From Leuctra nigra (taxonomy: Eukaryota; Arthropoda; Insecta; Plecoptera; Leuctridae), in the NCBI GenBank assembly GCA_934045905.1, contig OW203766.1, forward strand, positions 17,602,309-17,666,308: a stretch of DNA of 64,000 bases, in the 5' to 3' direction. Positions 9,440 to 52,600 of the stretch are shown here, one piece after another. The notes under the pieces were generated by a model. That model worked only from the letters and a program-made list of their open reading frames with translations, did not search any database and was not told the DNA's origin. Within the stretch, counting starts at the first letter, position 1. Every line of letters starts with the position of its first letter. The position numbers and the translations under genes were made by a program.

Positions 9440-10016
9440 TTCCGAGTTTTCCTCTTGATGACGACGTCGTGAGCCTACCACCACCGCCAACGACGCCCAC
9501 GACGCCTTAAACCGACGTCGACGACGCCTAGTGACAGAGGTCAGGACGCCTACACAACGTCTTGATCTGACTCTCAGTCGTCGGCTTGACGGCGACGTCG
9601 TGAGCCTATCACCACCGACAACGACGCCCACGACGCCTTTAACCGACGTCGACGACGCCTGTGACGGATTTCACGACGCCTACACATCGTGTTGGTCTGA
9701 CTCGTGAGTCGTCGGCTTGACGGCGACTCACGCCACCGCCAACGACTCCAACGACGGCCTTAAACCGACGTCGACGACGTATTGTGGCGGAAGTCACACA
9801 ACGTATTGGTCTGACTCGTGAGTCGTCGGCTTGAGGGCGACGTCGTGAGTCAATCACCACCGCCAACGACGCCCACGACGCCTTAAACCGACGTCAACGA
9901 CGCCTGTGACGAAAGTCAGGACGTGACTTGTCGACTTGATGGCGACGTCGTGAGCCTATCACCACCGCCAACGACGCCTACGACGCCAACGACGCCTATA
10001 TTCTACGCCATGACGC
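9440..10016. repeat. GC-rich tandem array abutting the receptor stop codon
   Basis: About five units of roughly 100-131 bp, each built from GACGACGCC-like words. Landmarks ACCACCGCCAACGAC or variants recur near 9478, 9610, 9732, 9860 and 9960. Several units contain GGTCTGACTC..GAGTC, which resembles the last coding bases of the adjoining exon (GGTCTGACTCTGACTCTGAC on the plus strand at about 10040-10060). The array therefore seems to have grown from the exon's 3' coding end. It is strikingly GC-rich and CpG-rich against the AT-rich surroundings. Arginine-rich frames across it are repeat artefacts. Confidence 0.85.
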
Positions 10017-10245
10017 CTACACCACTGTGATCGCCATCTTGGTCTGACTCTGACTCTGACGGCTGCCCTGCGGCGGCATGCGCAGCTGCACGTGATGATG
10101 ACGCAGCGACGTCGAGTGTGCCGACGCCGTGCGTCGCGACGACTGCGTGAGAGACTCGGTGACCGTGCAGCTGTGGTCAGTGCGTGAACTACGACCTCGC
10201 TCACTGGGCAGGCGCGGCAGACACCAGCTGAAGGGAGGCACCTTC
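10017..10245 (-). CDS. CCAPR: CCAPR exon 8: cytoplasmic tail and stop
   Basis: The acceptor TTATGTTTGACAG (AG at 10247-10246) supplies G to complete the Arg codon left by exon 7 (phase 2), giving [19 protein letters not shown]. The tail is Ser/Arg/His-rich, with many potential phosphorylation serines ([20 protein letters not shown]), and ends [11 protein letters not shown] at TAG (10019-10017). PPFSW just after TM7 suits helix 8 of this receptor class. The last four residues, ITVV, fit a class-I PDZ ligand (S/T-x-hydrophobic). The exon is GC-rich and abuts the GACGACGCC array two bases beyond the stop. Confidence 0.85.
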
Positions 10246-13200
10246 CTGTCAAACATAACGAAAAACATAAGAGAACATTATTTATCTAATAAATATTATA
10301 GGAGTCTCAAAGATTAAACCCAGAATATATTTGAAAGTAACGCTCAATGATTTCATGAAGTTATGTTATAGGATTTTGATTTCATAATAAAAATGTCACT
10401 TAAATATGTTGTTCCGTATTTTCCATAAGCAATTATTACAAGTTCGGAGGAACATAAAACGTTGTTTAAAAACTTAAAATTCCGGCAATGGACAGCAGTC
10501 CAGGGTCGACCTATTCCCATGCCCTCCCCAAATTCGCGGGCCCCTTGGGCCGGTCTCTCCCCTCGAGATGGATACCCCCTGAAATCGGGTCCCACCGGCC
10601 CCCCCCCCCCCCCCCGGCCTGTCAACATTCTGAACTGGCTTTGCCACCAGTGTCAGACTCCCCCGGATCGGGCCCGTGAGGTCTACACCTCCCCATGTCC
10701 TCCCTAGAATTCAACGAAGAAATCCTAATTTGCGCAAAATTACCTCACTATTATACTACTACTACTCTACAATAGTGGACGGATTGAACAACACACGAAT
10801 GAGATATGACATGAGAAGTGAGGAACTCTGATTTAAACAAGCGTTCAATTATTTCAAGTTCAATTAGAATCAGCGGTAGTAGTAATGAGACGTTTTTGTT
10901 GGCCAACGCAACTAAATACGCCCTTGCTCTCAGTAATAAGTCATTTCGTCTTGTAAGGATCTTTACCATGGCTCATTAGAGATGTCAAAAACAGCTTTCT
11001 CGGAGAATATTTTGTGAAATGTCAGAAACAGTAATATTGCTGTCGAATGTAATGTACATTCATTGCACATAAAGCAGCTTTAATAAGGCGAGTGTGGGTG
11101 AGGAAAGCTCTTGGTAATGAAAACGCCTCCGGAGATCTTCAAATGAAACATGGCGTTGACAAAGTGGAGCAACAGTAATTACCTCGCACAAAATACGTGT
11201 AGGTTATTCGTCAAATAGTTTCTTAAAAGTAGAATATGAACGAACATTTTCAGGTTTTAGCACTCGCAAAAATTATATGGTGTGTTTATGAATATTTTTT
11301 ACGCGGCATCTTCATCAAAATCGTTACGTGAAGGGCCCTGAATACATAAATCATGTACACTCCGCCAAATAATAAACGGTACTTGGTACAAAACGTATTG
11401 GCTGCTGGGCCGGTTCCTTGACAATCAATCCTTGTTATTATCAATGAAATCAGAGCTCACCTAAAAGAGTTAGATAATGCGTTAGCACTGACTTCATGGG
11501 ATGATGCCATCAAACCTTAATCAGTCAATTCATTTTCTTTCGAGTACCGTTTATTATTTGGGGGAGTGTACATTGTATGAATACCTAGAGATGTATCTCA
11601 TAACTATAATTCGTGATTTTGATGTCGTCCAAAACTTGAAGCATTTTCTTTCAGGTGCATTAAAACAAATGAACTTGATGTAGCCTCGAAACTTTCATTT
11701 TTAGTGATACTGCCAGAGAAACCATCTTAATGATGGTTTAAGATGTTCAAATTCCCCCCCCCCCCCCCACCCCCTTCCTCCCCATTAATGCAATCCTGGA
11801 TACTCCACTGCCGTCAGCGAAGAATAGGACATTTCAAGACAAGATCATATATTTCCCGTTCGATGGAGCCACAAGAAAGCTTTGGCGGAAGAATGATGAT
11901 AACGTAAAGAACTTCACATTCTTACCGCCTCTCGTTCCACAAACCAGATGCAGAGATGAAGTTTGAAATGTTCTTCCTACAGACCCGAGAGAATCAGTGC
12001 AAGTGACTCAACGTCCAATCCTTGATATCGAATCAATATCAATATCAAAATCAAGGATAATCAATGAACATAGATTTTACAAATGAAAACAACTTTGTGA
12101 CGTGCAGCGCCAGTGACATGTGAGTGGGGTTTCGAGGAACTAATCATTTTCATTCAATTTATTCAAATTTACTGAAGTTCGAAAATTTCGGAAAATTCCT
12201 ACCAATGAGAGGTTACCTAGTATCTGTGAGCGACCGACTCATTTGATTGTCTTTCTTCTGGAAGATAGCGACACTGGTGCGCATTCCAAACGTTTCTCAG
12301 CTTGGAAATGTAGAATTAGATGATTTTTCTTGTCGGTAGTTTTATTCGGCATTCCGCTTTTCATCAGCAATTTAATATTGTAAATTATGTTGGTCGCTTT
12401 TCGTCATTATTGTGATCTCACAAGCCCGAGATATTTTTCAGGGGCATTTAGATCCATTCCAAGGTCGGTCTGTGATTATTCGTGACAAGTTTCATTCGCG
12501 AGTAGGAAATGCTTAGTGACGAAGAGCCCTCGAAATGCATGAAATGGAGCTTCACCCCAACTCTCTTTCCTGATTATACATAAATAAGCCAAAAAAAAAC
12601 ATAAAATATTACTCAATTTGCCGGTGAAACAAAGACACCGATCTTGCTATACAAATAACAAACTTTTGTGAAACTATTTGACTGACGCGTTATTTCGTTT
12701 GACCTGCGGCGAAAAGAAACGCATAAACAAAAGAAGTATACTTTTGTGATAGTTTTGTTTACCTGAGCGTGCGGCAGATCTGCGTTGAGAAGAGGCAGTA
12801 GATGACGGGATTGGCGGCGGAGTTTAGTGGAGCCAGACTCTGGATGAAGGAGGCGACGGCGATGAGCGTCTGCGTGCGTGGGATGTAGTCGTACACTTGC
12901 AGGAGGTTGAACACCATGAACGGCGACCAGCACAAGACGAACACTAGAACATGAGATGGAAGTCGATGACGGCGTCGACAGACTCTGGATTACGGCGATG
13001 AGCGTCCGCGTGCGTGGGATGTAGTCGTACACTTGCAGGAGGTTGAAGACCATGAACGGCGACCAGCACAAGACGAACACTAGAACATGAGATCAAGTCG
13101 ATGACGGCGTCGACAGACTCTGGATTACGGCGATGAGCGTCTGCGTGCGTGGGATGTAGTCGTACACTTGCAGGAGGTTGAACACCATGAACGGCAAGAT

Positions 13201-16200
13201 GAACACTAGAACACGCCATTGGAACTAGTCCAGCATTTGTCAAGAGTCATGCGGAACGTAATACCCAAGAAGGTTACATAATGTTCGTTTGCAAGTCTCT
13301 GCTCTACAGACTTTGGAAAGAGCCGAGAAATCGTCAAAGAAGAAGTGCTAAAATATTTTATCTATCCGTCAAGAAAATTGTCAAATATTTCCCAACACGC
13401 ATAAAATGTCCGTATAATGTAAATAACTTATGAAGTTAATGACATATTGCTCTGAAAATTGCCAAAAACACCTAAAATATTGGTCCCGATGACCATGCAA
13501 AATTTGAAGTGATCCGTCAAACAATTCCATGGTTTAAACTTCAAAAACTTATCATGAGACTACTTAGATACCATTAGTATGTCTTCAAAATTTCAGATAA
13601 AAAATTAAACAAAACAAACACGCGGATAATCTGCATAATAGTACCGTGGTGACGCTCACTACGCTAGTTGAATAAGTAATTGCTGTTTGTGTTGTGTAAA
13701 TTATTTATTATTATACCTAATTGATTAATTAATAATTTACACACAGAATAAACCGCAATTTCTGACATTAATAATCTGATATCTCCCATGAACATAATTT
13801 TCTCTAAATTTAATTTTGAGAATTGTTTGCATTTGAAATTGCTAAATTAAGTGGTTGCTATGTAGATAGCTTTCACTACTTACATGGAACTAATAACTCA
13901 GGCTTTGGAGTATCGAAGATGCCTGCCACTTAATCAGCTTCATATCATGCTGAAGAAAAGCTTTTTCAAATCTGACAACTCCTTTATTCTTTATTGATCA
14001 GTGACAACAGAACCCCTTTTGTCCTTTCCCATAATATTTTACTCTGAAAGAATTTCGCAGAAACACAGTGTAATTTAATTTAGATGGACAATTAATACTT
14101 TATCCAAGTGGTAAAAAACAAAAAAAACAATTAGGGTAATTAGGTAAAAAAAAACAGATAGAATCACTTCAAAAAATTTAATTGTGTGAAAATTAAAAAA
14201 TAAATAAAAATTAAATGAAAAATCTAAAAATACAAAAAAATCACTTCAAAAAATTTAATTGTGTGAAACTTAAGAAATAAATTAAAATGATAATGAAAAA
14301 TCAAAAAGTGCAAAGACGAAAAAAATAAAATATCACAAAAATCAATATAAAAAACATTTAAAAGTAAAAGATGTCAGGTATACACTGATCTGAAATGGCG
14401 AATTGTTGACCCCTCAACTGTATGTATTCTGGAAAGAATTCAAGTCTCCAAACATCTCTCTCCGCCACAGATTTGTACCCGTGCGAACCGTTGAGCCGCA
14501 CGAATGTCTGAACAATTGCTCATCCTCGCACCTAACACCATCTGACAAGGTGGAAACTGAAAAACTCCCAAAGTTCTCGCACCTCCCGTCTGTCTGGATG
14601 AGGTAAGAGCGAAGAAGATTCCGGTCCAGAAGACTCACCGAACACTATGACGAACGTCATCTTGACAGTCTTGATCTTGGCTTTGGGAATAAGTCCGCGG
14701 GAGCTCGCGCGCCGACTGTCGTTGTCGTCCATGTTGCGCAGCATCCGATGGTCATCTGAGGGAAGAGATTCATCTTAGTCACTGACGTCAATATTCGATA
14801 CAAGGGATTACGTTGTTTTTAATTGGACACTGGTGATTTCTCTTGGGACATGTTTTATCAAAAATATTACATTGTTTGTAGCAGCTATAAAAGAAATTAT
14901 ATATTGGCTTCGGTGGAACATTATAAGTCTTTCGTCATAAATAGAAAAAAGATGGTTCGGTATTCATGTTTGTTATTCTATGTTATTCTTATGATTAATT
15001 TAGGGCTGTTTCTATCAACTAAAATTTAAGGTGGTTGGTGGATTAACTGACTTTTCTATAAATTCAACTGTTAAAATTTATTCAGTGTGTTAAATTTTAA
15101 TTTCGCGATGCAGTATCAGTGAGAAACTGGATGAAAATCTAATGTTATTTAAATAAAGTAAAAAATAAATACTGAAGTTTGCCTATTACTTTTAGGCAGC
15201 AATGATCTGTATTTAAAGATGCAATTTAATTTATGTATTGAGCTTAATTTTTCGTTTCAGCAATATTCTCCTTCCTATACCTACCCTATAAATTGTGTAG
15301 AATTAGTTACTTGAGTATACGATAATATGTTTCAAATGAATTTGTTCTGATCGTGTACCCGACAAGATACACGTAACTTAAGTACGGATAGCTAAAGTTT
15401 AGCGTTGCCGTGTTCTAGACCGCTGGCCAATCAGCGATGCCGTACACCAGAGCGTTGTTCTACAGAGTCTGTTTGAACGTCAACGTCGAACTATATTCAC
15501 GAAATGTAATAGAGAACTCTCTCTATAGTTTGAGATAACTAAAAACGTGAAATATTGACATGTCTAGGATGTAGACAAAAAATATTGTGCTGGGATAGTC
15601 ATCAAGGAATCTTTATTCAAATTCTGAATAAAACAAAAGTTGATTTTAAAACGCGGAAAACTATTCTATGGTACTTTGACGTCAAAAGGGCAGTTATAAA
15701 TACATAAACACAATGTTAAACCATGATGTCTCTGGGTCGCAAACAATGCTATTGCTGTCTACGTCATCAAACGTCGACTTATCAGGGGTGTCATTCCTGC
15801 ACACGTTAGCTTAAAACTTGTTCATGCTACTCTCTTAAAATTTAAGATAAGAGAGTGAAAATGCGTACTGGTATGCGCCTCCCCCCCCCCCCCCCCCCGG
15901 GTTTTCACTCTGTTTTTTCCCGCCAAAATGCTAGATTTTATTTCAATGCGAGAGTTATGAATGAAAATGTCGATGTACACCCGCGGTCACATAAATTGCT
16001 TGCAAAAGTCAAAGTCCTTTCTCGAAAACTTGGTTAACCAGACATTAACACAGAGGTGAATTCAGATTCGAGCATGTGGGGTTGGAGGGTTTGATTATGA
16101 GAACCAACCTCATACCTAATAATTATTCCTTCATTCAACAAATATTGACGGTAATTCGAGCTCCAACTTAGCCGGTTACCGTCAAATTTTCTGACCGTGG

Positions 16201-19200: not shown

Positions 19201-22200
19201 AAGACCATTTTCATTTTTCAACCTATCAGGAGATGTTTATTTAAATTTTAACCAATGCATGGTTTAAAAAAAATTATGGTCTGCAAACAGAAAAGGTTGT
19301 CTCTACATGTGTGCAAAATTGCAGATCGATCGGTGAAACGGTGCGACTTCTATTGCTCCAAATAGAAGCAAAAAAAGAGGTCCGTGTCAAAAGAGTCAAA
19401 AGGAGCCGCTCCCTTCGCTCGCTCAAAAATGTCGTTACGATGAACCATTTTCTTGTAGAATGTAAGAAAATATACAAAACCAGAAGAAAAAAAACAATTC
19501 AGAGACATTCAAGAAATCTTTGCAGTTAGTGAAACGTATATTCAAGTAAAAAGATAGTATGCAAATTTTTGGTAGCATAGTCTGGGTTCTTCCCCAGGCC
19601 CACCCGTCGATCAATTCCTCCACAATTTCCTTTATTTCCAAAATTGTATGACAATGGGGTATTTTAGGTAACATTTTCGAAGAATTTGAAAGTGTCATAT
19701 CAGAAAATTGACATTCGATTTCATGTGCGAAAATACTTAGGTCTTCCAGTATTCTCCAGTGTTTTCCATGCGCGTATGTGACATAAGAAAATCTTGTTCC
19801 ATTTTTAAATTTCATATTACCTATACGAGATATAGATAGACAAAGACATAGCCAAATAGACACACAGTTATGATGTGTATTGCATTTTACAAGTTGACGA
19901 TCATCGGTTTTTAAGGATAGTTCCATATTTCAAAATTGGCGCCCGAAAACTGATGTTTTCGGAAAGAATAGTTTATCAATATCCGATCGTCAATGGTAAA
20001 TTCTTCATAAGACTCGTCGTCCGGGTGTTCCTTGGTATACCGATCGTCTCATCCACTCATTGACGCTTGGCGTCCTGATTTCACTGCCTCCTACATGACT
20101 GGTCGCTGTAGGAATGTTCAGACAACTGACATCCTTGACATCCACCAGGCCGTGTCCAAGATGGCCGATGTAAACAAACGATAAGAACTGTCAAATGTGT
20201 TTTTAATTGATAGTTCACGCGAATCCACAGTAATACATAATTATATGGGTATGTACAATTAAAAACATTATAAAAGTATACTATAAGTATAGTTTTGTTT
20301 TGTTGAAGTGTAAATCATTGTATGGGGTAAGTCGTGTTGTTATAAACTAAACAAGGGAGCTGTTGTTCTCCCATGATTAGTATGCTCATATGACTGTAAA
20401 ATAATATGCAAACTGCAAAATTCTGGTCAAATGACAGCCTAATCGATTTACCGTCCATATTTTGTTGAACGGTGAAATAATTATTGTTATGTGTGGTGGT
20501 TGGTTGGTTCTTATAATCAAACCGTCCAGTACCACATGATCGAAATCTGCGTTTACCTCTGCGTTTTCGTCTGGATAATGCAATTATGAGCAATTTATGT
20601 GACCATGGGTGTTCATGCTTAGCCTCTAAAGTACATACATCTAGATGTTCGTTAATTTGTGTCGCACGTTTTAGTATATTAATTGCTTATGAATTTTGTC
20701 ACAAAGGTTTTCAGAAATTTCAAATTAATCGTGTACATTAGGTAGTCGTAGCAGCCATTATGTACAAACACTTCAAGGTATCAAAAGTACCTACATGCAC
20801 TACTCCTGGCCCAGGAATCTGGGGCAGGAATTAATTAAAACTAGGAAAACGCTCTGAGTAACGCGTTGATGAGCGAGCACGGATACGCGCAATACCTCGA
20901 ACCGAAAATCTGTTTATCGAAAATGTCCTTAAAAGCCAATAATTCTTGAATTTCGTCACAGACTTGTGTGAAAATCTCCAACAATTCCTAAAATATTGGT
21001 CCCAATAACCATGCAAAGTTTTAAGTTGATCGATTGAACCTTTATGACTGAACGATTCCTTGTTAATTTACAAAAATCACAGGATCTAGTTCAAAAAATA
21101 ATTAAACGGTCATATCAGTTTCATAATAATATACGTTTGAAAGTTTCTGCTCTAACAACCTTGAAGTGAAGATTCGAAGATGCCGTGAAATGTGAAATTC
21201 GAGAAATATGACAGCCAACACGCAAAATATCCGTAAACTGTCAATAACTTTTGAATTTAAACACAGTTTAGTCTGAAAATTGTCAAAAATACAGATAATG
21301 TTGGACCCGATGACCATGCAAATTTTTAAGTTTATCGGTCAAACGGTTCTGGTTTAAATTTCAAAAAGCACATTAAATATTTTTTTAAATTTTAACCAAT
21401 GGGACGATTTGGCTGAAAATTTGTAAAGTAAGAGACAAAGTTGGTCTTAATGACCATGCAAAATATAAGGTTGATCACATTTGTCGAAGACCATTTTTAT
21501 TATTTAGCCTATCAGGAGATGTTTATTTAAATTTTAACCAATTGATAGATTTCAAAAAAAATTGAGGTCAGCAAACAGAGAAGGTTGTCTCTACATGTGT
21601 GCAAAATTTCAGATCGATCGGTGAAACGGTGCGACTTCTATTGCTCCAGATAACAGCCAAAAATATATAAAAAAAAAAAAACAGAGGTCCGTGTCAAAAG
21701 AGTCAAAAGGAGACGCTCGCTTCGCTCGCTCAACAATTACCTCCTCGCTATGACTGGTAAATATATTGTACGCAATATTAGTTTTTTCAAAGTTACACTT
21801 ACATACGTAAAACTTTACGATTGCAATGTGCTTCCAAACTCCACTGATGACAACCACTATACCTACTCCTAGTGTATAAGCGAGCCCGGATGACAAACAC
21901 AACTTACTTCTAGTGTAAAAACGAGCACAGACAACAACAACTACTAGTGTCTAAGCGAGCACGGATGACAACCACTACCTATACTCCTAGTGGAGAATCG
22001 AGCACGGATGACAACCACTACTTACTCCTAGTGTATAAGCGAGCACGGATGACAACCACTTCTCACTCCTAGTGTATAAGCGAGCACGGATGACAACCAC
22101 TTCTCACTCCTAGTGTATAAGCGAGCACGGATGACAAAAACTACTTACTCCTAGTGTATAAGCGAGCACGGATGACATGCACTACTTACTCCTAGTGTAT

Positions 22201-25200
22201 AAGCGAGCACGGATGACATTCACTTCTAACTCCTAGTGTATAAGCGAGCACGGATGACATGCACTACTTACTCCTAGTGGAAAAGCGAGGTCGGCCGGTG
22301 GAAGTGAGCGTCTTGCTCTTGCTCCAGATGGTGACGACGATGACGGCGTAGCACGCGGAGATGATGAGCGTAGGGATGACGAACAGGACGATGGCGACGA
22401 CTGTCATGTGCACACGCCACTGCCACGGCTCGTCGAAGTCGATCCAACACTGCAGCTTGCCTGGGACAGGGAATACAGCATTCAGTGGCGTGCGGTGGGG
22501 GTCATTTTCCATAGGCACTGCCTAGGCCCATTTTTTTTTGTAACTGATGAAAAGTAATGGACAGGAGTTTGAATTGTACCGATAATGGTACAGACACAAT
22601 ATCGTATCAAGAAGTATAAAACATGAGTGTATCTGACCTTGAATGTTCTTCTCCTCGTAGAAGATGAAGATTGGAATTGAGAAGATGACGCTGAGGAGCC
22701 AGGCGACAGCCACTAGCGCCCTGGCGCGGCGCCCTGGCAACAATCACAAGACAAGGTCATCTTGACACTAGCGCCCTGGCAACAATCACAAGACAAGGTC
22801 ATCTTGATACTAGCGCCCTGGCAACAATCACAAGACAAGGTCATCTTGATACTAGCGCCCTGGCAGTGTCACAAGACAAGGTCATCTTGATACTAGCGCC
22901 CTGGCAACAATCACAAGACAAGGTCATCTTCATACTAGCGCCCTGGCAACAATCACAATACAAGGTCATCTTGATACAAGCGCCCTGGCAACAATCACAA
23001 GACAAGGTCATCTTGATACTAGCGCCCTGGCAACAATCACAAGACAAGGTCATCTTGATACTAGCGCCCTGGCAACAATCACAACACAAGGTCATCTATG
23101 ATACTAGCGCCCTGGCAACAATCACAAGACAAGGTCATCTTGATACTAGCGCCCTGGCAACAATCACAATACAAGGTCATCTTGATACTAGCGCCCTGGC
23201 AACAATCACAACACAAGGTCATCTATGATACTAGCGCCCTGGCAACAATCACAATATAAGGTCATCTTGATACTAGCGCCCTGGCAACAATCACAACACA
23301 AGGTCATCTTGACGTCTATCACCATTCACCACGTGGCTCCATGTAGTCACATGTTTAACCTACGATCACCACACTTTATAGGGATTGGAAACGGTCTGCG
23401 CATTGTGACGTAGTTCCCATAAGACCCATGCTAAAATGAAGGCGGCCCAGGGTCTGGTTCGTCGATTTTTGCTCCGACTTACTTCCTGCTCCTGCTTACT
23501 TCCGGTGCACCGGCGCAAAGGACGCTTTTGGAGCTTTGCGCAGAAGCGAAATAGTTCCTGCAGTTTGCCGCCAGATTCAAAAACATTCCAATAGTCTTTT
23601 GCACCTTACTTGAAAGTTGAAACACGAAATTAAGGAAACGTTTCCATGATATTTGATTAATAAATCAAGTAATTTATTAAATTATTACCTTTATTTTCTC
23701 AAGCTTCGACATATCGTGTCGTTCATTGCTATAGGTATTTAGTTTTTGACAGATGAAAGTTTGACGTTTGAAATTGCTGCCATTAGAGTCGGTGAGCAGG
23801 ACCCATGGCCAGCTGGTCAGACCGTTTCCAATCCCTGTTAATTGTGGTGGTCGTAGGTTTAACCATGTAGTGGAATGTGAATACTGGAGTGGTTGAACAG
23901 TTTAACCTACCCGATCTGCAGGAATTGATTGACCATGCTGAGCTTATCATTTGATTTGGCTATTTTTCTTATAAAGATGGCAGGTCTGCTAGGCGCATAC
24001 GCATTTTCACGGTTCACATTTTCTTTTAGTTTTATCTTCACTCACATTAATTTATTTTAAATGAAGAGGCGTTTGCTTAGAGTTCAATCTAACTCAACTA
24101 AATAATGTCACATGCTTGAGTGCTTGGCGACATTTTGTGAGGTTAGACTTCAATTAAGATTTTACAAAAAGTTAACGTTTTAAGGAAGAGGTTCGAGAAA
24201 CTCGTAAATTAAATTTTGTGGTAATATTTCGATCACAAGAGTCTGAATTGAGCACAAATCTTTTTCAAATTGTTTTAAATATGAATACCAATTCAAAACC
24301 TTGCTTTCGAGACCAGCGAAGAAATAGACGCACCAGACGTAAATTCGCTACTCAGAAAATGTTTTAAAGAAAATACGATAAGTCAAGCCTTAATCAGTAA
24401 TGTTTGTAAATTTATTTATAAACAGTAGTTACCAAGGTACGTTAGGTTGTAAATATGCTTCGCAAATACTTGCAGTGAAACGAGATGGGCTCCGCAGCTC
24501 CGCACTTAGAGCACTTATCACTTTAATACATGAGAAGATACACGACGCTAATTCGCATTAAAGCTCGAAATATCACATCGGTTCAATACACTAGAAAGTT
24601 TCAAAGTTCACAAACAAGTTCAAAATGAATTCCATCTTTCGCAACGGGGCAAACGCGTAAGTAAAAGTTTACACAGTTGTCAAGTCTCATATCACGGTTC
24701 CGCCTTGTGACAAACTGCAATCTGACAACACCGCTTTCAGTCATCTACCACCAGAGATTTTGCGATTATTTTTCAATTCATTCTTGAATTTCTCACTGCG
24801 AAAGGCTGTTGAAGCCATGTTAGGGAATTAACATGAAAAATCTACATATTTATAGCGCTAAATGTGTGAGAGGACCTCCCCTTACTCCTCGTCCGTGCAT
24901 GCTTTACATGGCCGCAAGCTTTGGAATACGCAAATCCTTAGGATTTTACATTTTGTACTAGATCCGCTTTCAGCAGGGGCTATACGCTATGTCAATTCTA
25001 ATTGTGGCATTTCAATTACCATTGTTAAATCGTGTGGATCGAGCTTCAAACCAGAACTTCGCCATTGAACTTGATAGAACTTTTTATTTTGTTTTGGTCA
25101 ATTCTTAAGCCCGCATTCTATTGGATTAGAATTACCAAGTCAACAAGGAATAAACTTTTGTTTCAAACAGTCAGCTGGAGAAATCTCTGTACCAAAATCC

Positions 25201-28200: not shown

Positions 28201-31200
28201 TAGATAAATATTTTTTATCTAGATAAAGATAAAGATAACATGAAAATTATTTATCTAGATAAAGATAAAGATAAAAAATAATTATCTAGATAATTATCTA
28301 GATAATTTTATCTAGATAAGTCACAACACTGATCCACTGCCACCGTAAAATGTTGATTTTTTAAATGTTGGCATTCTATAAATTGAACATGAATGTTGGC
28401 TGCCATGGAAGAACCATGAATGCGATTCTAGATAGCCGACGGTGCGGACTGCAATTGTGTCATTAAGACTGTTAATTCATTTAAATAAAAGGAATAAAAC
28501 AAAACTGGTGGATAGATAATCAACGAAAGTATTTGAGGAACTTGGAGGAAAAGTTACAAACCGAAAGGATACTGTAATATTACCCTTTCCAAATAAATAA
28601 GTTTTTGTAATACATTTTATGTTCATGTACCCATGTATTGAATGAAACCTATATAATATCATCCATATATCTTCTAAACTAAGTATTTGTGATAATATGG
28701 CCTTGAAATAGTTTTAGGCTATTTACTCAGAATAATGAAATTGTTGGTTTCATGGTTCTTCCGGCCCAGCATTCAATTATTAACGCCAGACCTGGTTTGA
28801 ATTAAGGTCAAACGACACGGGGACATTTGAAGATACATTCAAGGGAATCGTATAGTAATAATAACGCCTAAGGATATTTCAAAGAACATGAGTCTGAAAG
28901 ATACTCACAACTTCCTGAGAAGTTCATTGGATGTGTAATGGCGTCGTAACGGTCTATAGACAGCGCCACCAGCACGTAAGTGGACGAATACGTAACCACT
29001 GTCTGCAACAAAACAATACATTATTCGTAGAATAGAATTCATTTACATCTTCAAACTCCCTGGTACTGATATTAAAGTGGAAAGAGAAAAATGGAGGAGC
29101 AGGGAAAATGCTTATACAATAGCAATTTCAGAGACGGAAGTGGAAATTCTAGAGAAAAAAATATCTTGAGTGTGATATAGTTGTTATGTATCTACATAGA
29201 TGTAAGTACATGGACTACAAAAAATTTGCACACATAATTCAGAACGTAGTTTACCATGGAAATGATATTTACGAATGCGTGTAAAGAGCTAGAATCTATA
29301 AAGATAGAATAGTAGAATACCTGCATGAATCTGACGAACTTGCAAGCAAGGTTGCCAGCGTGCCAATCTACTGTCGTGTGCCAGATGATATCAGTCAGCA
29401 CGTTGATCAAGCCCACCGTCAGGTCTGCAACATCGCATCAACCAATCACATTACTTAATGGCAACATCGCATCAACCAACCACATGACTAAATGGCAACA
29501 TCGCATCAACCAATCACATGACAAGCTGGCAACATCGCATCAACCAATCACATTACTAAATGGCAACATCGCATCAACCAACCACATGACTAAATGGCAA
29601 CATCGCATCAACCAATCACATGACAAGCTGGCAACATCGCATCAACCAATCACATTACTAAATGGCAACATCGCATCAACCAATCACATGACTACATGGC
29701 AACATCGCATCAACCAATCACATATAGATGGAAACAATAGCATTCCTTTAGCATGTACGATGTAAATTGATATCAAAGTTTTAGGGCCAGTCTTTCAATA
29801 CTCTGCTAACTTTAAAACTGTTGATTAGGACTGCATTGTCATGGCAACAACCAATGGCATTCCTAGAATGACCACTAACTAACTGTTTAGAGCTAATTGG
29901 GACTTTAGCAGAATATTGAAAGACCGGGCCTTAGTTTTTTTTTTTTTTTTTTTAATTTTTATTTATTTAGAAAAGTACAAATTACATATTATTGTAGCCC
30001 CGCTAAACCAATAGGATGGCTTGTCTGCGGGGCTACACACTAATAATAAACACAATAAAAACACTTAATACACTAAAAAAACTAAAAATACATTTATAAT
30101 ACACTCAAGGGAAGAATGCACATATACAGTGACAAATATTCAAAAACTATATATACTAATTTCAGCAATCAAGGGAAATTATGCATTTGGAAGATTTGAA
30201 ATCACCCATTAACATCACCCATCACCCATCACCCATCACCCACTACATCTTACTTATAGTTACCCAGTTCTGTCTATCTGTGTGTGTGTGTGTGTCAGGA
30301 ACGGTTGCGCGCTTCGATTTGACATTGGTATTTATTGAAAACTATAACTAAGATGGTGGCGTTACATTGCCAAACATGTCTAAAATTACGTCTTCTGCTT
30401 TTGAATAAAGAAATAACCAAAACTTACCTAAGACGCACACTTTATGCTTTTGTATTTGTAACAAATCTACTCTAATGTATAATTACTGTCAAATCAATTA
30501 CTTTACATAGAAAACGTCATGCCGACAACTTCGTTCAAACTGACATATTCAAATTTTCTTCTCTCTGAGTTATACATGGGCCGTGAACCTGAATAGTGAA
30601 TACCAACAAACCAAAGCCGATTGAATTGAACATTTGTAATATATTTTATTTTGTTAAATATGTACTTTTCCATCGTTTCTTATTAGTGGTGTCATGTTAC
30701 TGAAGGAATGTGCCTATTGATACTGTTTTTAGCATCAATGTTTAGTTTTTACAATATACCTATCATGTGAAGCCGAATATAGCACCGTGAAGAATGTGCT
30801 CTCATTGGTTGACAGCTGTCACGTGACCGTACATACCTCTCTGCTATTCGGTCATAATAAAAAAAGCAGATGGGGTAAACTTGATAGTTTGTCCGTGTTT
30901 TAGAAGTAGAAGGTCGGAAGTTCATTTCAATTATTCTTGAGTTGAGCTAATAAACCAGGTTTTCCGACTTCATCAAACCATAATTTTGTAAAGGGGACAT
31001 GAGTCATTAGAATATAATATAACATAATAGAATAGAATATAATCATATTAACAGTTTAGGAATAAACTGTACTTTAGTAATAAGATATTAAGAAAATACA
31101 CATGTGGATTTTCCAGTGGCTGAAATAGTCAGCTGTTGTAGCATCAAGTTTCAGTTCAGTGAAATGATCAGATTCTAATCTATTAAAATGAACATTTATA

Positions 31201-37200: not shown

Positions 37201-37638
37201 CTGCCCCCTCTATCGACTACTTCAACTATCTACTTTGACCCTCTGCTAAGCGGTCACAGGACTCCTTAACAACCAGTTTAATTAATAATTAATCACTAGT
37301 GATGGGTTAATAGCAACCACCACGGGACTACACTCTTAAGAGAGCATTACGAGACCACCCTGAGGTGTTTCACTTCAGTCTCTCATCAGCTATGTGAACA
37401 TCCAATCATTGACCGCCCTCGCGGCTCGGAATCAAACTTTTCACTCTCACTCACGAACTATCTTCAACATGTGTCGAGTATAAAGTTCTTCGGAACTCTA
37501 ATTAGTCACCAAAAACATAATTTAATCCACATTCTGAGCGATCATCGAATTAATGTGAGAGTAGTTCGGGAAAATATTTTAGTGGTGAATAATGTCGTAC
37601 TGTTCTGAAACTAAAGCCAATGACGACGGATAATAAGG

Positions 37639-37669
<31 letters not shown>

Positions 37670-40600: not shown

Positions 40601-43600
40601 ATTTTTGAAATTTAAACTAGAACCGTACGACCGATCAACTTAAAACTTTGCATGGTCATTGGGACCAACATTATCTGTATTTTTGACAATTTTCAGACTT
40701 ATCTGTGTTTAAATCCAAAAGTTATTGACATTTTACTGACATTTTGCGTGTTATCTGTCAAATTTCTCGAAATTGTTGATCACGGCTTCTTCGACTCTTT
40801 ATAGTTCCAAGGTAGTTAGAGCAGAAACTTTCAAACGTATGAAACTGATATGACCGTTCAACAGATCGTCTAATATTGTGTAAGTACACACACTTTTATC
40901 ATGAGTGGTCTCAGGTATAATTTTTTAAATATATCCTATGATTTTTGAATTTTAACAAGGAACATTTTAATTATAAAGGTTCAATCGATCAACTTAAAAC
41001 TTTGCATGGCTATTGATACTAATACTTTAGGAATATTTGGAGATTTTTATACCTACAAGTCTGACGAATTTCAAGAATTATTGGATTTTAATGATATTTT
41101 CGATCGACATATTTTCGGTTCGAGGTGTTGCGCGTGTCCGTGCTCGCTCATCAACGCGTTATACAGAGCGTTTTCCTAGTTCTAAAATATATACAATTTC
41201 ACTATCTACATTGTGCATCGAAACTGTACGAAAAAAAATACGAAGACAAGTGAATGTGAGTTTTATCTTATATGACAAAATATGACATCACAAATGTCGG
41301 ATATGTGTTGTAAATATCCTGTCATAAACAGACGTGAAGAACCTCTCTCTCTCCCCTTTCTATCAAGCGTGAAGTAATTTAAACTGTCTCCCTTTTGCGT
41401 GACGTTCTAAATCTAAAGAGCGCGCGAATCTTGGCGAACCACACTCAGTACCGGCTGTGTCTGGACTCGAACTGAGCCGCATCGCGATCAAAGGGTCGCT
41501 ATTCCAATCATCTGTGATGAGATATCACGTGGGCGGACCGGACCGGGAATCGAACCGGGATGAAAAGAACTCGAAGCGATGGGGGACGTTCAATGCTCGT
41601 GGAGGTATGAGGACGACGGAAATGAAGGACGAAGTAAATAATTACTCCACTCCTCGCAGAATTCAATAAAACAGGTCAGCTTATTGTAAATCATATAGGT
41701 TTGCTTGAAATTGGAACATTTGTTCTTCCAGATTAGAAGAAAATTTTTCTCAAACCTACAGTAGAACCAAGTAGAACTCAGAATATCTGTTCGATATTAT
41801 AAAGTAGAACGTCAGTCTGTCTTTCTGTCTGTCTGTATGTTCTTCATACTCCCCCTACACCCTTTGACCGATCTCAACCAAACATTCTATGGACATACAC
41901 ACATTCGTACATATGGAAAATAACCCAGGTCATAGGGTTCTTACCCCCTTCGCCAAACAACCCTTAATTGAAAACAGCACCCCTAAATCCTCCCCACCAG
42001 CACGAGCAACGCCGGGTGGGTCAGCTAGGCAGTAATATATTCTGAAAATACGCAATTTTAAATACTATAAAATTATTTAGATATTACAGGAATTTGTGGG
42101 TTTTCTTTGTAACTGTTTGAGCTTGCATATTAGCTGTAAAAAAGTAACGCATTCCGATACTTTGAAAAATATAAAAATACATTTCAAACATTAGAAAATG
42201 TTATTTTGATACTAACAAACTTTTGTTAAAGTAAACAGAGTTACATGAAAGCATTTATGTAATTTAATGGGGCGTTTCAAATCATGTAAATCATGTAAAT
42301 ATTTCTCTTCGTCTATTCCATATACTTGCAATGACGAGAAACGTGACTGTTTTCCAAGTGGCATCAACTCAATCACACAGCGAGAAGTTCATTACGTCAC
42401 AGAGCGTGAAAAAGTCATCAAAATGTGAAGTTTCAGTCACGATGCAGCGATACGTATCCAATAATACATTACACGTTCTACTTCATCATGTAAATGGAAT
42501 CCGTGCAAATAAAAGCATTTGTTGTAAAAATGTTATCATGACGTGTTTTCTTTTATCTTCCCGTAAATGCCGCTCTTGGCACACTTTCATTATTAACATT
42601 TATTTCACAGTTCCAATTTGCTTCTGTCTCTCGGTATACCTAGCCATTTGCTAGGCTAGGCAACACTAGTGAAAAGTGTTAGTGGAAACTAACACTGCTT
42701 ATGATGTTCGCAATATTATTAAATGTTATATTTTGTGTCATCATTCAAGTTTTTATGTACTACCTATGTTATGTGTATTATTCTATCCCCATAGAAAACA
42801 CTCCGTGTAAAAATACTCAGCCAAGTCTCTAAAGGGGTCCGTTAAGGGGTTGAATACGCAATCCACGCAACGAAGTGGAAGTATATTGAGATCAGTTGGA
42901 CAGTCAGATACAATGTTGATGTCTTGCTAATACTTCAATACTTTCTGTTGATTCACACTCAATGAGCCAAGTTTTTTTTCTAATTTCAAAAATATTTTTT
43001 AAATTAACATTTGACATAAATATTTAAAAAATCAAGTTTTCGCGTTTTCGTTTTCGCTCACACTCCAGTGTAAGAAAGTATTGATGTTATCAATGTCATT
43101 TTGATCAGAAAGGCAGTATTTATAATCTTCGGAAATGAACCACAAATAAGGTAAGGAATCTGGTGGAAATGATAAAATGAAGTAATAACAAAGTAATAAC
43201 GTAAACAACACAACTCACAAGTTATTACACCTTCACTGACATTTAGAATCCGCCATGACACCATGACACCAAACAACGTAAACAAACCAATGCGCGTTAC
43301 TGCGCATGACACTTAAGTGTCATGGTGGTTATAGCTGTTAGAAATTATGTTACCTGTTGCAGGCAAGGTCCATTGATTTAGGTATTTCTAAGCCTTGTGT
43401 ATATGTATTATTGTTTTCTGTGAGAAATAGTAGAAAGTGTGTTTCATTATAGTTAACTGCAGATACAATAGCAGATTTGGAACAATTATGGGTGGACTGT
43501 TTTCGAAAAATGTCGATGACAAAATACCAAGAACAAAAGAAGACAATGAACAAATCGTCAAGTCCGTGTTTGAGATCCTGGAATGTCGTGCTTGTCTGGA

Positions 43601-46600
43601 GTCCTGCCAAGCTCCGATCTTCACGTGCGTGATCGGGCACGTGCTCTGTTCCGACTGCAAGGAGAAGGTGGAGCAATGTCCGGTGTGCGGTGTACCAGGA
43701 ACTCCTTCCACCCGCAACCTCCCCTTGGACACCCTCAGCGACCGAGTCCTCACCGTCCCTTGCAAGTTCCAGCCGAAGGGATGTGGAGTCAAGAGAAGCA
43801 GAGAGGAAGATCTAGAGGTTCATTATCGTAACTGCAGATACAAGTCTTCTTACAAATGCTTGGTGCAGTCTTATTGCGATTTTGTTGGGAGTGGCGACGA
43901 ACTTTATGAACACGCTCAAATTGAACATTCAGGGAATGTTTTGGTTATCCCGAAGAAATGCGGGGTTGTGCTTAATACGTTAAGAAATGAAAGAGTCACA
44001 GTTATCTTCAAGAACGCTGAGGACGAATACTTCTGGATATGTGTCAGATGTATGTTCAGGCCCACGGTGAAGATCGTCGTGTACTCGAAGTACATCGGGC
44101 CCGATGTACAAGCGTCTAAGTTCAGCGTCCACCTGAAGATTGAGTCGAGGGCGACGGCGACGACCATGCAATTCAACAGGTCTCCGCTCACATTGGATGA
44201 AGATGATCTGACCTCACTCTGGATGGCAACATTACTTTCACGATTTCTGTGCAGGACGTAACCAAGATACACATTTTATTATAATTTTATATCAAGCTAC
44301 ATACCTACTTGTTTAAATACTTGCGTACTAAATTTTTTATCCTAAATAAAAATGTCGGTTACTCTCCACAAAATATTTTGTAATTAATTAATATATGTTA
44401 TGTATTATAGTATTATAGTATTTATAGTATAGTTATTATACTTATTATAGTTCCATATTATACCGTCTCAACTTTCTTGTAGTCTCATCAAGATTCATGG
44501 ACAATGGACATCATTATTACATTCATACTAGTAGTAAGGCAAGGTTCGTTTACTCCTATAACATTGGCTAAAGTGAAGCCTAAACAGACCTGATTTTCTA
44601 CTAAATTCGTTTATCATATATAGGCTCTCTAGTTTATCAGATGGCGCAGCTCCATCTATTATCTCCAAAGTGAACTATACTTGCAGTGTATATGCATACG
44701 CAATATAAGTTCATATGTTTACCACCACTCACCAGTAGCTGAAAGCAGAATTAGCGTGTGATAATTTCACTTTTTGAAAAGACTGGGTGTAAATAAACTT
44801 AGAAAATGATACTCTGCTTTCAGATTCAATTTCAGGACATCATAACTTTCGATCCATTGATCCAAATGTATTGAAGTGTTTACACAGTTAAAAGCAATAT
44901 ATTTTGAATACAATTTTAAATTTTCAGATTAAAAATCTGAAATATCGAGAATATCTGAATCTAAGTCTATCTCTCCCATAGTGCGTTTTTTTGCGCCACC
45001 CGATAAACTCGTCATATCCAGGTTTTAAATAATTTAAAACATCAAACCAGCACGCAACTTCTTCTTTTTCACATGTTCACAATAAAAGTGATCAATATCA
45101 AACAGAAAACGATGTGTATGTTCTTTATACTTTGAATACACGTAGCATCAGTTGTATTGTAATTCAACAGAGCTTAACGTCGGTGCAGTCAAAATATTGC
45201 GGTTGAACATCGGAATTTTGAAACGTATTCTTTGCAAGCGAATAAGAGTGAAGAGACATGAAGACAGAAGTAAAAGCTAATTTTACATTCGTGAGGAACG
45301 CATATTTTTACACAGGTTTGCGATGCCTTTATGGCCGAAATTAATTACCAACTATAAGTTAAGGCCGATTATGTAACTTTTTACTTAAATTCAACTATTT
45401 TAGTTATTTTAAAAAACCAAATCTGATTGGCTGTGCCGCCAATTTAATCCAATATTTAGTATATCGAGTACAATCGTTTGTACCTAATTCACAATATGTT
45501 ACAAATATTTATTTTTTGAATGTAGGTTATAACTTAGATCCCTATAAAATACAGTCCGTGTAAAAATCTTAACCACTCTTTCCACTCAATATCTCATTAA
45601 AAAAAATTAGATTTTTAAGAAATTTTAAAAAGATTTTGAAAAATCTTGGCGCATTCTATTTAATAATTTAATCTTGACCAGATGTCAGATTTTTTTTATG
45701 AGATGAGATTTGACTATGGTGAGGATTTTGATGGAGAACATGGTGATGGAGACTTATGACACATTATTATCAGGCAGATGATAATTGTCTCATTCATTTA
45801 TTTACTCGTATCTTAATAATATATCTTATACCTTAAAATAATGTGTCTTATTTTGACCAGGTATAACGCCTAACGAGCCCGAAGATGCACCTACGCTATT
45901 TTCCCGAATACGACGAGCTATTCCAATACTTGCAGTTGCTTATTACATCTACTGCATTCTCATTCTACTCGTCAGCATCTATCAGAAGAGAGATGACGCG
46001 GAAAAAGTTACGATCTATGTGGGCAATTTATGTATTAGAATTTTTGTAATTTTCAAGTTTGGAACTCTGTATAGAAATGAAGAAAGGGCAAGAGAAGCGC
46101 TAATTGAAATGGAAATACTGTTCAACGACCATGTTCCTAGAGATGACATCAAGATTCGCATGGGAATGTGGTTACTGAAGGTGTTAGAGATAATGTCAAT
46201 TGTGTTCTGGATACTAATTGACATTCTTTTGCTGATCCATCTGCCAGAATTTTTTGCTACAAGAAGGTTGTATTCATTGTAAGTTTATACAAATTATTAT
46301 GAAAATATTAAAAATGTACACGAAGTATCAAGGAGAACCACCTTGTTGAGCGTGTGTAGCGAAGGTTACCGCGGTACTCATATGGCACTTTCTCTGTGTT
46401 TTTTGTGTGTAACTGCCCAGGTCAAACCGTTCAACCAATCGATCTGAAATTTTCCACACGTACTTTTTTAATCTCTGATGTCTTTGTGATCGTTTTTAAA
46501 CAGCAGCCTGTGATAGTGGGTGTTATAATCCTAGCTGTGATTAATACATTTATTACCTATGTGATTTTTGAAATTTAAACTAGAACCGATTGACTGATCA

Positions 46601-49600
46601 ACTTAAAACTTTGCATGGTCATTGAGACAAACATTTTAGGCATTTTTGCTAATTTGAAGATTAATCTCTATTTATTTTCAAAAATTATTGTCATGTTAAG
46701 GACATATTATTCTATAATCTTGAAATATTTGAAAAACGTATACTAAATTTTCATCCCCGCCTTCTTGATGCTTCAGTTCCAAGCCCTGTATAGAGCAGCT
46801 GATACGTGCAAACACATCAAAATAATCGGATGCAGTACGAAGGCTCGCTCATCAACGCGTTACACTGAGCGTTTTCCTAGTTAAATAATAAGTTAACGTA
46901 TATTTTATTACAAGTTATATAATTCCAGTCACTATACCACCCCTATTCCCTAACGATATATGTTTCATTCCAGTCACTACCACCCCTACGACATCACGAT
47001 GTCTCCAATGTGTGAAATCACGATAATAACTGAAACGATATTTATTACGTTTGGATTTGGCTACATCATATTAGCAGACTATACTTTCATTGCCATCGTT
47101 GTTCATGGGATTGCTATTTTCACATCATTGAGGTACTTACCAATCATCAGGTTTGCTCCGGTTGGGATGTGTTCCTTTCGAAATAGTTTATCTTAAGACG
47201 GCTTGGTAGTGAGTTTGACCTTGAAGAGTTTTTTAATCGATTTTTATCAATATCTTTTTCCAGTGTAATTGTTAACAAAATAGGGCTATGGACGTGAATT
47301 CAGAACAGTTCAATGAAAATAATTTCATAGTTTGGAATAAGATATTAGTTTTATTGTGTCCAACAGGTGTTTAGAACCCGAAAATTTAGTAAATTTCGGA
47401 TAAGATAGTAAATTTCGGATTCGGATAATTTTAAGATATTAGTTTTATTGTGTCCAACAGGTGTTTAGAACCCGAAAATTTAGTAAATTTCGGGTTCTAA
47501 ACACCTGTTGGACACAATAAAACTAATATCTTATTCCAAACTATGAAATTATTTTCATTGAACTGTTCTGAATTCACGTCCATAGCCCTATTTTGTTAAC
47601 AATTACACTGGAAAAAGATATTGATAAAAATCGATTAAAAAACTCGTCAAGGCCACGCTCACTACCAAGCCCTCTTAAGCCTGATTTACACTGTTCAAGT
47701 TTACTTTCAAGTCCTTGAATTCAACCCTTGAATTCAACCCCTTGAATAGTCTAAACGGATAACTTGAAGCGTTCAACCCTTGAATTCAAGACTTGAACCT
47801 ATTTAGAACATGTCCTATTTTCCTTGAAGACTTGAAAGACTTGAACGACTTGAACCAATCAGAACCCACGCCACAACTCTGGCTCCGCCCCTCTCTCCAG
47901 TATCTTTCAAGATTTTCCCGCCAATTCCAGATTTTAACATATTCTAGCAAATATTAATTAGTTACCGATATGTCATAATCACGAGAGACAACTGTTTCAT
48001 TAAATACACAATATGTGTCTATGTGGCATCCAAAATCTAGCACAATATTAATAACATGTTCTTTGCAAGAAGTTACTATTTTAGGTTATGTTACGACTTG
48101 AAGCTTGAACAGTGTAAATGCCCATTCAAGTGGTTGAATTCAAGGGTTGCGTTCAAGGGCTTGAATTCAAGGACTTGAAAGCAAACTTGAACAGTGTAAA
48201 TGAGGCTTTACAACACTTTTCTATAAAACTAAATTTCCTCAACAGCAAACGCATTGAGAATATTCGTGACATTCCTGGCCCAATGGCAATACAGGACGAC
48301 GATCGAGTGTTTAGTTCGTTGGTAGAAGTCAATGATCTGAGAAAATGTGGAAAAGAAGAACCTCTGTTCTTGGCTGTGCAACGAACACCACCCCCACCAC
48401 AAGGACACCCGAATGCCAAGGTCATTGTGGTTCATGCAAGTCGATTGACAAAGCAACGTGAAGCTATCAACATGGCCATGGATCGTATTTTGGGCAATTG
48501 TATTCAACAACATCAACACATAATCAGGTGAGATGATATTATCTGAAGTTATCTGTACATGTTTTGAAGTTGTATGTCAAGAACAGATTTCAAATTATAT
48601 GTAATTTTTTATGTGTAAATTATTTTTGTTTGATTAATTTTTGTATTATTTTTAATCTTTTATCTATCTAGTGGAGCGGTCGCTCCACCCAGCCAAGTCG
48701 TACTGTACACTCACACTTACTCAACATACCGTAAATGCCTAATAAACTGAGGAGCAGACCAAACACTTTTACTGTAAGCAACAACATGGCATTTTCGGCC
48801 TACTGGATCAATTAAAATTGGAAAATCTCACATTGTTGCAAAAATCTTAATTTCGAGCTATGGCCCACCCCACACCATATACCAAATTTGAGAACAACAG
48901 TTTATGCCGTTTGCGAGCTAGAGGGCCGTGAAAACAGTGAAATTACACCCCTTTAAAAGTTATCTGATTATTATTCTCCTGGTCAGGAAACGTTGATATC
49001 ACCGCCACAGCCTAAGCGGCAAAACCGATCGCTCTGAAATTTTTACCACATGTGCACTTTTGGCGCCTGAGGTGCTTTTTTATAAAACCAACCGGAAGCC
49101 GCCATTTTGAAACCGGAAGTGCCGTCATATCTCAAAAACGGATGGCCCGATCAGGACGAAATTAGCGCCAAACGATTCGGATGGTCATCTATATAAAATA
49201 ACAATAGTCGAAATAGACCCGTACTATTATCGAAACCGGAAATTACGTCATAAAAATGCCAAATCTGACTAAAATCATCTCTTATAACAATATCTACATA
49301 TTCAGAAGGCTTATAATGTTTCAAAACATTTATAGATACAAATTTTAGGTGGCTGTGATGTCAACCGCCATTTTGAAAACCGGAAGAGATGCCATAACTC
49401 GAGAACCACTGGACCGATTGGAACGATACTTTCGCTATACTTCATAGCATATTATTATCAGCATAAACATAGTAACAAGCGCAACTTTTCTTAAAAACCA
49501 GATCACAAAGGCGTATTTTTTAAAGGAATTTAAGTCTTGGTGCCCCAATAGATATATGTTACAAGTTGCAAGAATAAACTGAAAAAGGAGTGATATCCCC

Positions 49601-52600
49601 ATAAAAAACACTCCGTGTAAAAATACCAGCCAAGTCTCTTCAATTAAAAAAAAAAAGAAATCTAAAAATTCAGCACTGAAAAGTAGTGATATCAAAAAAT
49701 TGGCCAAGTCAAAACTTTTCAAAAAATACTTGGCGCATCGTTTTTTTAGTGCATTATTATAGATGTATAGATGAGTATATTTGATTTCCGGCCTACTTCT
49801 ATACTATTTATAATGCACGATGCGCAAAGTATTTTTTGAAAAGTTTTGACTTGGCCAATTTTTTGATATCACTACTTTTCAGTGCTGAATTTTTCGATTT
49901 CTTATATTTTTTTTAATTGAAGAGACTTGGCTGGTGTTTTTACACGGAGTGTTTTTTATGGGTTGACAATACCAGAGGAAAAAGTTTAGAAACTGTTTAT
50001 ATTTTAATAGTGTTCCTGGTATATTATCTTTTAAAGAACCGATTTCGTTGAGACTCAACAAACTGTTGACTTCCTTTTGGGGATGTGTTTCAATTTTTCG
50101 ATACTAATAATCTTATTTGCAGGTTGTTTGAAGAACTGAGTGATATTGTCAAATGGGTGTTAGTGGTACAACTCGGAGTCAATTTAATTACTGGTATTTT
50201 TGTGCTGTACCTAACAACAATGGTAAGTAAACATTCGATAATATTATAATTTTGTTCTGTATTTGTATTTTATTGTCGTCAAATTCATTATACAATGTAT
50301 TGTATTCAGTAATGTTTGATATCTTAAAATACTGTTTGTCTTTGTTTTCATTATAAGTTCACTGCGTTGCCTTTTCCCTGATCTCCTCTATACCTTAGAG
50401 GTGAAGGCACGAAGCCCATATTTTCATTTTACGTTGCACCCTATTGGAATGTTGTACATAATCAAACGAGTTCAGCGAATCAAACTCTTTCAGTTGTCAT
50501 TTGACGTCAATAAATAATTTTATTGAATGATACAAAATGACTCGTGCACATTCCCAAAGTGATTGAATGAAAGCAGAGTTACTAGTTTTACAAACACACC
50601 TCAAGAATCATTGGATTTCGGCCTTCCTTTTCGGAGGTACAGAGCTGTAGTTTAATTTATAGGTAATCGTCGTCTAGAAATATCATAAATGTTGCAGTGT
50701 CTTTTAGTTTTCAAGGTTTCACCCAGACAATCAACGATGCTTCATTACGGATGTATACATAAAATGAAATATTCAATTTTCCCTGTTCCAGGCTAAACAT
50801 TTCGGAGATGTAGAAATCTTGGTCGTGTTCCTCACGTTCTGCATATACATGGAACTTCTCTTTGCCTGCATCATGTCCGACATTCTTACACTCACTGTAA
50901 GTGTATAAATGTTTTTCATTGTTAGTGCAATCTATAAACTCTGGATGAAAAACCCGAGTTAGGTGAATTTATATTTAGATAAAGCAAACCCCACAAAATA
51001 TGCTTAAAATGTCAATAACTCATGGAGTTCTTCATCGATTAGGCTGAGACAAGTTTTTGAGTTCTCCTAAAAAATCTCTACCTTCCACCCATCTATACTC
51101 TCATTACTTGGAGATGAGCTAATGATAAGCCGGCATTTAAACTTATTTCAGAGCTTTCAGGTGGGCGAGGCTGCCTACTGCTGTGATTGGCTGAACGCAT
51201 CTCAACCCTTCAAGCATGCGTTACGCATGATCATGTCAAGGTCACAACGACCAGTGTACATCCGCGCTGCAGGAGTTCCTCTCTCCAGGAGGACCTTCAG
51301 GACTGTAAGTTACAACATGAGCATGGGCGTCTAAAGGGGGGGGGGGGGGGAGTTCCTCTTTCCCTATGTCCAGGAGGACCTTCAGGACTGTAAGTTACAA
51401 CATGAGCATGGGCGTCTAGAGGGGGGGGGGGGGAGTTCCTCTTTCCCTATGTCCAGGAGGACCTTCAGGACTGTAAGTTACAACATGAGCATGGGCGTCT
51501 AGAGGGGGACCCCCTTGGACACCCTCCTGGATGTCAGGAAAACATATCTTTTTGTGGTGATTTAAGTAAGTTTCATTTTCAAACAAAAACCCAAAAACCT
51601 CATTTCAATGTGTCAAAAAAACATTCCCTGCAGGGCAAGGTGAAGGCATGCCTTCCACCACCCCAAAGTGTAAAATTTTAAAAAATATTGAATATGTCAA
51701 CAAAATACACCTCATAACGTCTCAAAATTGATTTCAAAGTGTCCAAAAAACGCTGATTTATATTTGCAGGTGTGCCGAGCTGGCTACTACCTCTACATGA
51801 TGCTCTCAAACTTCTACTTCGGAGTGAAGATTCTACGTCAGCCGCAGTAGGCATTTACGATATGTTGAGTGAGTGTGAGTGTACAGTACGACTTGGCTGG
51901 GTGAGATAATTTTAATGTCAATATCAGAAAAACTGTCCGAAACGACGTATCGAATCGAATAAAACTTTAATCGAATTAATATTGTACACTATTCATGTTA
52001 ATTGTTGTGGAAAAATTATGTTTTAAATTATTTTATGGCTGTTTATATGAATAACATAAGTCGTGAAAGCTTAAACTTCACAAATTATTTTATTAATATG
52101 TATTAAAACTATCACCAGTTGCACTCCCAGGGAAGATCAAAGACATCAAGGACGACACTCACTTCAAGTCGAAAGTTAAAACTTTTCTACTAGACAACTC
52201 ATTCTACTCGATCGATGAGTTCTTATCTAATAGAAGGACTCCCTATTAATTTTAACCTGTTTTTTCACTTTGTTTTTAACTATGATTTTATTTAATTCCA
52301 GGACAAGTACGGAACAACCGTTTTTGTACACTACTCTTAATAATTGATGCAGCTCTGCTTCCTATCACTCTTGTAACTTAATTATAAATGTACTTATGGT
52401 TGTATTTTGTAATACTATTCTTATTATAATATTATGTTTATTTCACTTTATAAAATTGACAATGTTCATACAAGTATTATACTCTGTGATAACTGACAAT
52501 AAATAAATAAATAAATAAATAAATAAACATTCTAGGTTTTAATGAAACTTGTATTCCTCAGTATATGGTTCGATGCTCTGCGCATTTTCATGGCACCTCC

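Follow-up and report, generated by a model that had tools for sequence, protein, structure and literature searches.

A minisatellite at a splice donor is known from the human gene IFI6/6-16. The minisatellites termed mirages in amphioxus have units of 10-72 bp in Adh3 and of 150-160 bp in the globin genes, and many of these units hold AG/GT signals. Regular splicing of the mirages is supported by RT-PCR, and both length and somatic instability have been reported (PMC3087553, PMC3902484). In human segmental duplications, exon-intron boundaries can carry variable internal tandem repeats (PMC2812944). Tandem copies at exon edges in the stonefly Leuctra nigra were considered undescribed in the initial annotation of the DNA analysed here, which could not be maintained, since the amphioxus mirages share their anatomy (PMC3087553, PMC3902484). 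No report of mirage-like arrays in insects was found in the open-access literature, in a survey that was not exhaustive.

The window, a stretch of 64,000 nucleotides, contains two genes that were rebuilt: CCAPR (exons 2 to 8, domain family 7tm_1) and an odorant receptor (six exons used, domain family 7tm_6). CCAPR exons 2 to 8 on the minus strand join in a single frame and align with the CCAP receptors of other insects; exon 1 was not located. The exons concerned and the tandem copies at their edges are the following, with unit lengths and copy numbers from TRF.

29427..29723, minus strand: array at the acceptor of CCAPR exon 2, 34 bp x 8.7 (TRF)
29321..29424, minus strand: CCAPR exon 2
28909..29002, minus strand: CCAPR exon 3, no array at either edge (TRF)
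22729..23312, minus strand: array at the acceptor of CCAPR exon 4, 42 bp x 13.9 (TRF)
22638..22733, minus strand: CCAPR exon 4
22272..22460, minus strand: CCAPR exon 5
21842..22289, minus strand: array at the donor of CCAPR exon 5, 41 bp x 11.0 (TRF)
14639..14755, minus strand: CCAPR exon 6, no array at either edge (TRF)
12856..13195, minus strand: array at the acceptor of CCAPR exon 7, 136 bp x 2.5 (TRF)
12763..12943, minus strand: CCAPR exon 7
10017..10245, minus strand: CCAPR exon 8, with the stop codon
9966..9996, minus strand: 9-bp repeats 3' of the CCAPR stop
9454..9911, minus strand: array 3' of the CCAPR stop, 131 bp x 3.6 (TRF)
46922..46990, plus strand: two-copy duplication at the odorant-receptor acceptor (exon 3)
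51153..51304, plus strand: odorant-receptor exon with the repeated donor GACT/GTAAGT
51284..51508, plus strand: array at the odorant-receptor donor, 83 bp x 2.7 (TRF)

The window also holds an apparently intronless open frame (43434-44261) whose domains, RING and zinc-finger, are SINA-like. Long near-perfect inverted repeats are located between odorant-receptor exons (47192-47679 and 49598-49962), with arms of 208 nt (95%) and of 96 and 56 nt (96-98%), and are probably foldback elements. The arms of a 56-nt inverted pair (48686-48741 / 51848-51903) are 3.1 kb apart and 96% complementary, the second one beginning at the odorant-receptor stop codon.

All seven edges named in the initial annotation were found to adjoin tandem copies, the seventh as a weak two-copy match. 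TRF identified six arrays at the named places, with units of 34-136 bp present in 2.5-13.9 copies. Of the six strongest arrays, five are at most 5 bp away from the end of a coding exon, and the sixth repeats part of the CCAPR end codons and the stop. This exon 8 array concerns the stop codon and no splice edge; by its TRF coordinates it starts about 105 bp past the stop, and a gapped local alignment with a score of 33, run without a chance control, matches its 131-bp unit to the final coding bases together with the stop codon. The odorant-receptor exon 3 duplication was absent from the TRF output. Its copies start at 46922 and 46967, 45 bp apart, and align over about 24 bases, interrupted by a gap of 2.

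Splice signals were indeed present within the repeat units of exons 4, 5 and 7 and of the odorant-receptor donor. At the exon 4 acceptor, CAGGGCGC, comprising the acceptor and the first exon bases (GGCGC), occurs in 12 of the 12 decoy pieces listed, one of which is of double length. The exonic part common to these decoys is 13 bases shorter than that of the working copy. At the exon 5 donor, GTRAG follows ACTAGRA in 7 of 11 units, the working unit among them, while the exon 7 array carries the acceptor in every unit, together with about 88 bases of the exon. The donor is present three times in the 83-bp array of the odorant receptor, with G runs between the copies. The exon 2 array ends two bases before the exon, with an edge copy reading ttgcag/ACCTG. 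In computed frames, use of the first decoy would introduce a premature stop in exons 4 and 5 of CCAPR as well as in the odorant-receptor coding frame, and would shift the frame at CCAPR exon 7.

Units within the arrays vary by substitutions and indels. Between arrays, unit lengths and sequences differ, as had been proposed: upon comparison of 33 arrays or array loci by blastn, the sole cross-match was one pair of a dispersed satellite. The two copies of this 118-bp satellite (L010:2154-3068 and L017:4762-5306) are 92% alike and located on different chromosomes.

Circular shifts within the window were used to assess the chance expectation. Five of the six arrays with a score of at least 400 lie within 5 bp of an exon end, for an expected 0.62 (p 0.00045); the test covers the 26 ends of 13 annotated exons, leaves unannotated exons uncounted, and is post hoc, the finding having been chosen for this very pattern. 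In twenty random 10-kb pieces (200 kb), about 9% of the sequence is minisatellite, a figure that includes expanded copies. A working edge occupies a single position, so that the fair chance expectation is given by the founding-unit share and not by coverage. For the random pieces this share amounts to 1.43% (29 clusters, bootstrap 0.8-2.2%), and array counts near exons need to be set against such a founding-unit null rather than against raw coverage.

Within the random 10-kb pieces, arrays overlap the coding sequence of a kringle gene (L009, with one piece above and one below the Pfam cut-off), of an EGF exon (L018) and of a TRP-like channel (L006, below the Pfam cut-off, with PDB matches to TRPC4/5, E 8e-8). 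Tandem units of 70 and 38 bp lie side by side between the coding parts of the TRP-like channel (L006:9530-9817). An open frame of 1582 aa on the minus strand (L016:42-4787), which encloses a 69-bp repeat array, looks like a mobile-element gene.

The genome searched comprised 536,196,549 bases in 144 contigs; the ipLeuNigr2.1 assembly of L. nigra is given as 536,298,261 bp in 174 scaffolds in PMC10280035. The genome gave 149 PF00001 matches, from which a sample of 80 match ends was drawn: an initial 20 hand-picked down the list with several skipped, and another 60 out of 93 produced by rule. Eight ends were dropped before counting, leaving 72 splice edges: L037, L043, L044, L047, L058 and L086 had no clear splice edge, and L056 and L057 were paralog copies of L054 and L055. 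Among the dropped ends, L086 has an 18-bp array at its match end and the array of L056 is the same as that of L054. In these rhodopsin-type receptor genes, 13 of the 72 splice edges, called by a hand-made score and by eye so that individual calls may err, lie in tandem copies. They comprise five donors and eight acceptors (L024, L029, L036, L049, L052, L054, L061, L063, L065, L071, L078, L088 and L093), eleven detected by TRF and two, L049 and L078, added through self-comparison. Arrays at edges beyond chance, as claimed in the initial annotation, are thus confirmed for receptor splice edges, with a probability of 3e-11 against the expected 1.43% founding-unit share and of 2e-7 against 3%.

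In seven compact myosin genes (37 exon matches), a sample biased by its selection for compactness, none of the 74 match ends lies in tandem copies, which differs from the receptor splice edges with a Fisher p of 5.6e-5. In long-intron myosin genes, 2 of 20 match ends do (L121 and L124, judged by eye; P 0.03); all myosin ends are match ends and not confirmed splice edges. At L108, where an array is separated from a myosin match end by 8 bp and from the likely donor by about 90 bp, no hit was counted. Pooling of the receptor set and both myosin sets gives 15 of 166 (P 2e-8). The pattern therefore recurs elsewhere in the genome, at 13/72 receptor edges and 2/20 long-intron myosin match ends, but a uniform genome-wide trait is not supported, given the 0/74 compact-myosin match ends set against the receptor edges. 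The excess of edge arrays is real but uneven across genes, and receptor genes carry an extra excess.

Single-word counts of the donor word CAGGTRAGT and of its backward control are about equal in the genome (6197 vs 6365). Tandem pairs at a distance of 79-109 bp gave 367 matches for the donor word and 230 for the control. Among the matches listed, the donor word has 10 independent tandem loci in about 100 Mb and the control 12 in about 406 Mb, a 3.4-fold higher rate (p 0.006); restricted to the same 100 Mb, the numbers are 10 and 5 (p 0.15). One donor-word locus resembles a LIM-homeodomain exon end, as read from the letters. For the single donor word, two tandem cases were found among the about 85 loci represented in the first 100 places listed. 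These results weakly suggest a genome-wide edge excess of about 3-fold; the average excess is therefore modest and uncertain, and receptor genes stand out. A perfect-donor pattern with a period of 29-59 (35 matches, 15 backward) was discarded, with only about 4 independent loci: a single dispersed repeat accounts for 24 of its 35 matches and a single array for 8. The dispersed repeat behind these 24 of the 35 listed places has two perfect donor words 41 bp apart.

A break-prone process at exon edges, possibly linked to GC-rich exons, had been put forward as a cause in the initial annotation. Neither is indicated. Exonic sequence makes up a widely varying share of the repeat unit, from 0 to 0.91 across 18 arrays (KS p 0.41); in this run the units of exons 2, 4 and 5 and of L052 were multiples of the TRF period, which makes their shares too low, and odorant-receptor exon 3, having no match, was left out. 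The duplications, as a set, are therefore not cut at the junction, and junction-anchored breakpoints were rejected since the duplication ends anywhere in the exon. Two arrays, those of exon 2 and of L121 (the latter judged by eye), do start directly at the splice site. Exon GC was 0.577 at 11 array edges and 0.560 at 61 others (p 0.32), the latter still including two edges later recognised as array edges. GC was rejected as a driver because edges with and without arrays do not differ.

Unanchored breakpoints together with similar exon GC favour ordinary tandem duplication plus tolerance. The edge arrays are probably mirage-like minisatellites, generated by local tandem duplication and tolerated because the copy next to the exon is left unharmed. 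Local tandem duplications would arise throughout the genome by an ordinary process, either slippage during replication or repair. A duplication across one exon edge may be nearly neutral, because the copy that remains attached to the rest of the exon would still provide a complete exon. The outer copies would become intronic decoys, amplified and homogenised by unequal exchange; homogenisation is proposed because the decoys share features absent from the working copy. Splicing would be expected to stay on the exon-adjacent site. For the receptor genes, a higher duplication rate or weaker purging is favoured, and our guess is that exons and flanking DNA are duplicated more often in genes that pay little for splicing noise. 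A broader version, possible but rather doubtful, holds that exons and flanks are hot zones of tandem duplication, strongest in receptor-type genes, that the edge arrays are the part which selection leaves visible, and that the habit was reached independently in stonefly and amphioxus. If true, a plentiful standing reservoir of decoy splice sites would exist, from which new exons and introns could arise.

A uniform background, in which the edges of a minisatellite-rich genome are met by chance and the window and receptor sample were lucky, agrees with the array coverage of about 9% in the random pieces (200 kb), with the compact myosin genes (0/74 match ends) and with tandem copies at only 2 of about 85 donor-word loci among the places listed. 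It is nevertheless unlikely with 13/72 receptor splice edges against a founding-unit share of 1.43% (0.8-2.2%), and the shift test in the window (p 0.00045, post hoc) also argues against it. Creation of the duplications by a process aimed at the junction, such as breaks, R-loops or reverse splicing, is quite improbable: the exonic share of 0 to 0.91 in 18 arrays and the similar exon GC at edges with and without arrays oppose the spanning of both donors and acceptors (5 and 8 of the 13 receptor edges) and the start of the exon 2 and L121 arrays at the splice site, which would speak for it.

The arrays could also mark new introns that arose by tandem genomic duplication of exonic AGGT, as the 18-bp units of L052, containing CACAG/GTACT, and the TRP-channel stretch of L006, with 70- and 38-bp units adjacent between coding parts, might indicate. 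With CCAPR introns that contain other sequence, and each array on one side only, there is very little chance that this is so. No support was found for a single satellite or transposon landing at exon edges, and it is extremely unlikely: the units hold local exon or intron sequence, the 33 sequences compared include one related pair, the 118-bp satellite away from the named edges, and the exon 7 array sequence occurs at one genome place in a search that skips very common words. Tandem repeats are difficult to assemble, but ipLeuNigr2.1 is a PacBio HiFi assembly with a QV of 57.2 (PMC10280035), so that an assembly artefact has next to no probability; substitutions and indels between units and a like pattern at many loci also oppose it.

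In their anatomy, the stonefly arrays come close to the amphioxus mirages. Like these, they are minisatellite-like (six with units of 34-136 bp), the units of exons 4, 5 and 7 and of the odorant-receptor donor span the exon-intron boundary on the 5' or 3' side, many units keep AG/GT splice signals, and several genes of the genome are involved. They differ in belonging to an insect and not a cephalochordate, and in the presence of four such splice edges in one gene. RT-PCR-backed splicing and length and somatic instability are reported for the amphioxus mirages only, the stonefly being represented by the sequence of one haplotype. Unlike the stonefly arrays, IFI6/6-16 is a single human locus. 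The repeats in human segmental duplications are likewise minisatellites at exon borders, but lie in recently duplicated primate paralogs (PMC2812944). In intron gain by tandem duplication the duplicated segment also crosses the intron-exon boundary; there the new intron is spliced, whereas the stonefly case is known from genomic DNA only. We read the stonefly arrays as the insect counterpart of the amphioxus mirages in a distant lineage. The range of mirages would thereby widen from cephalochordates to include insects, and the L. nigra genome would offer many genes in which to study, side by side, how a splice site is chosen among nearly identical neighbours and how tandem duplications turn into new exons or introns.
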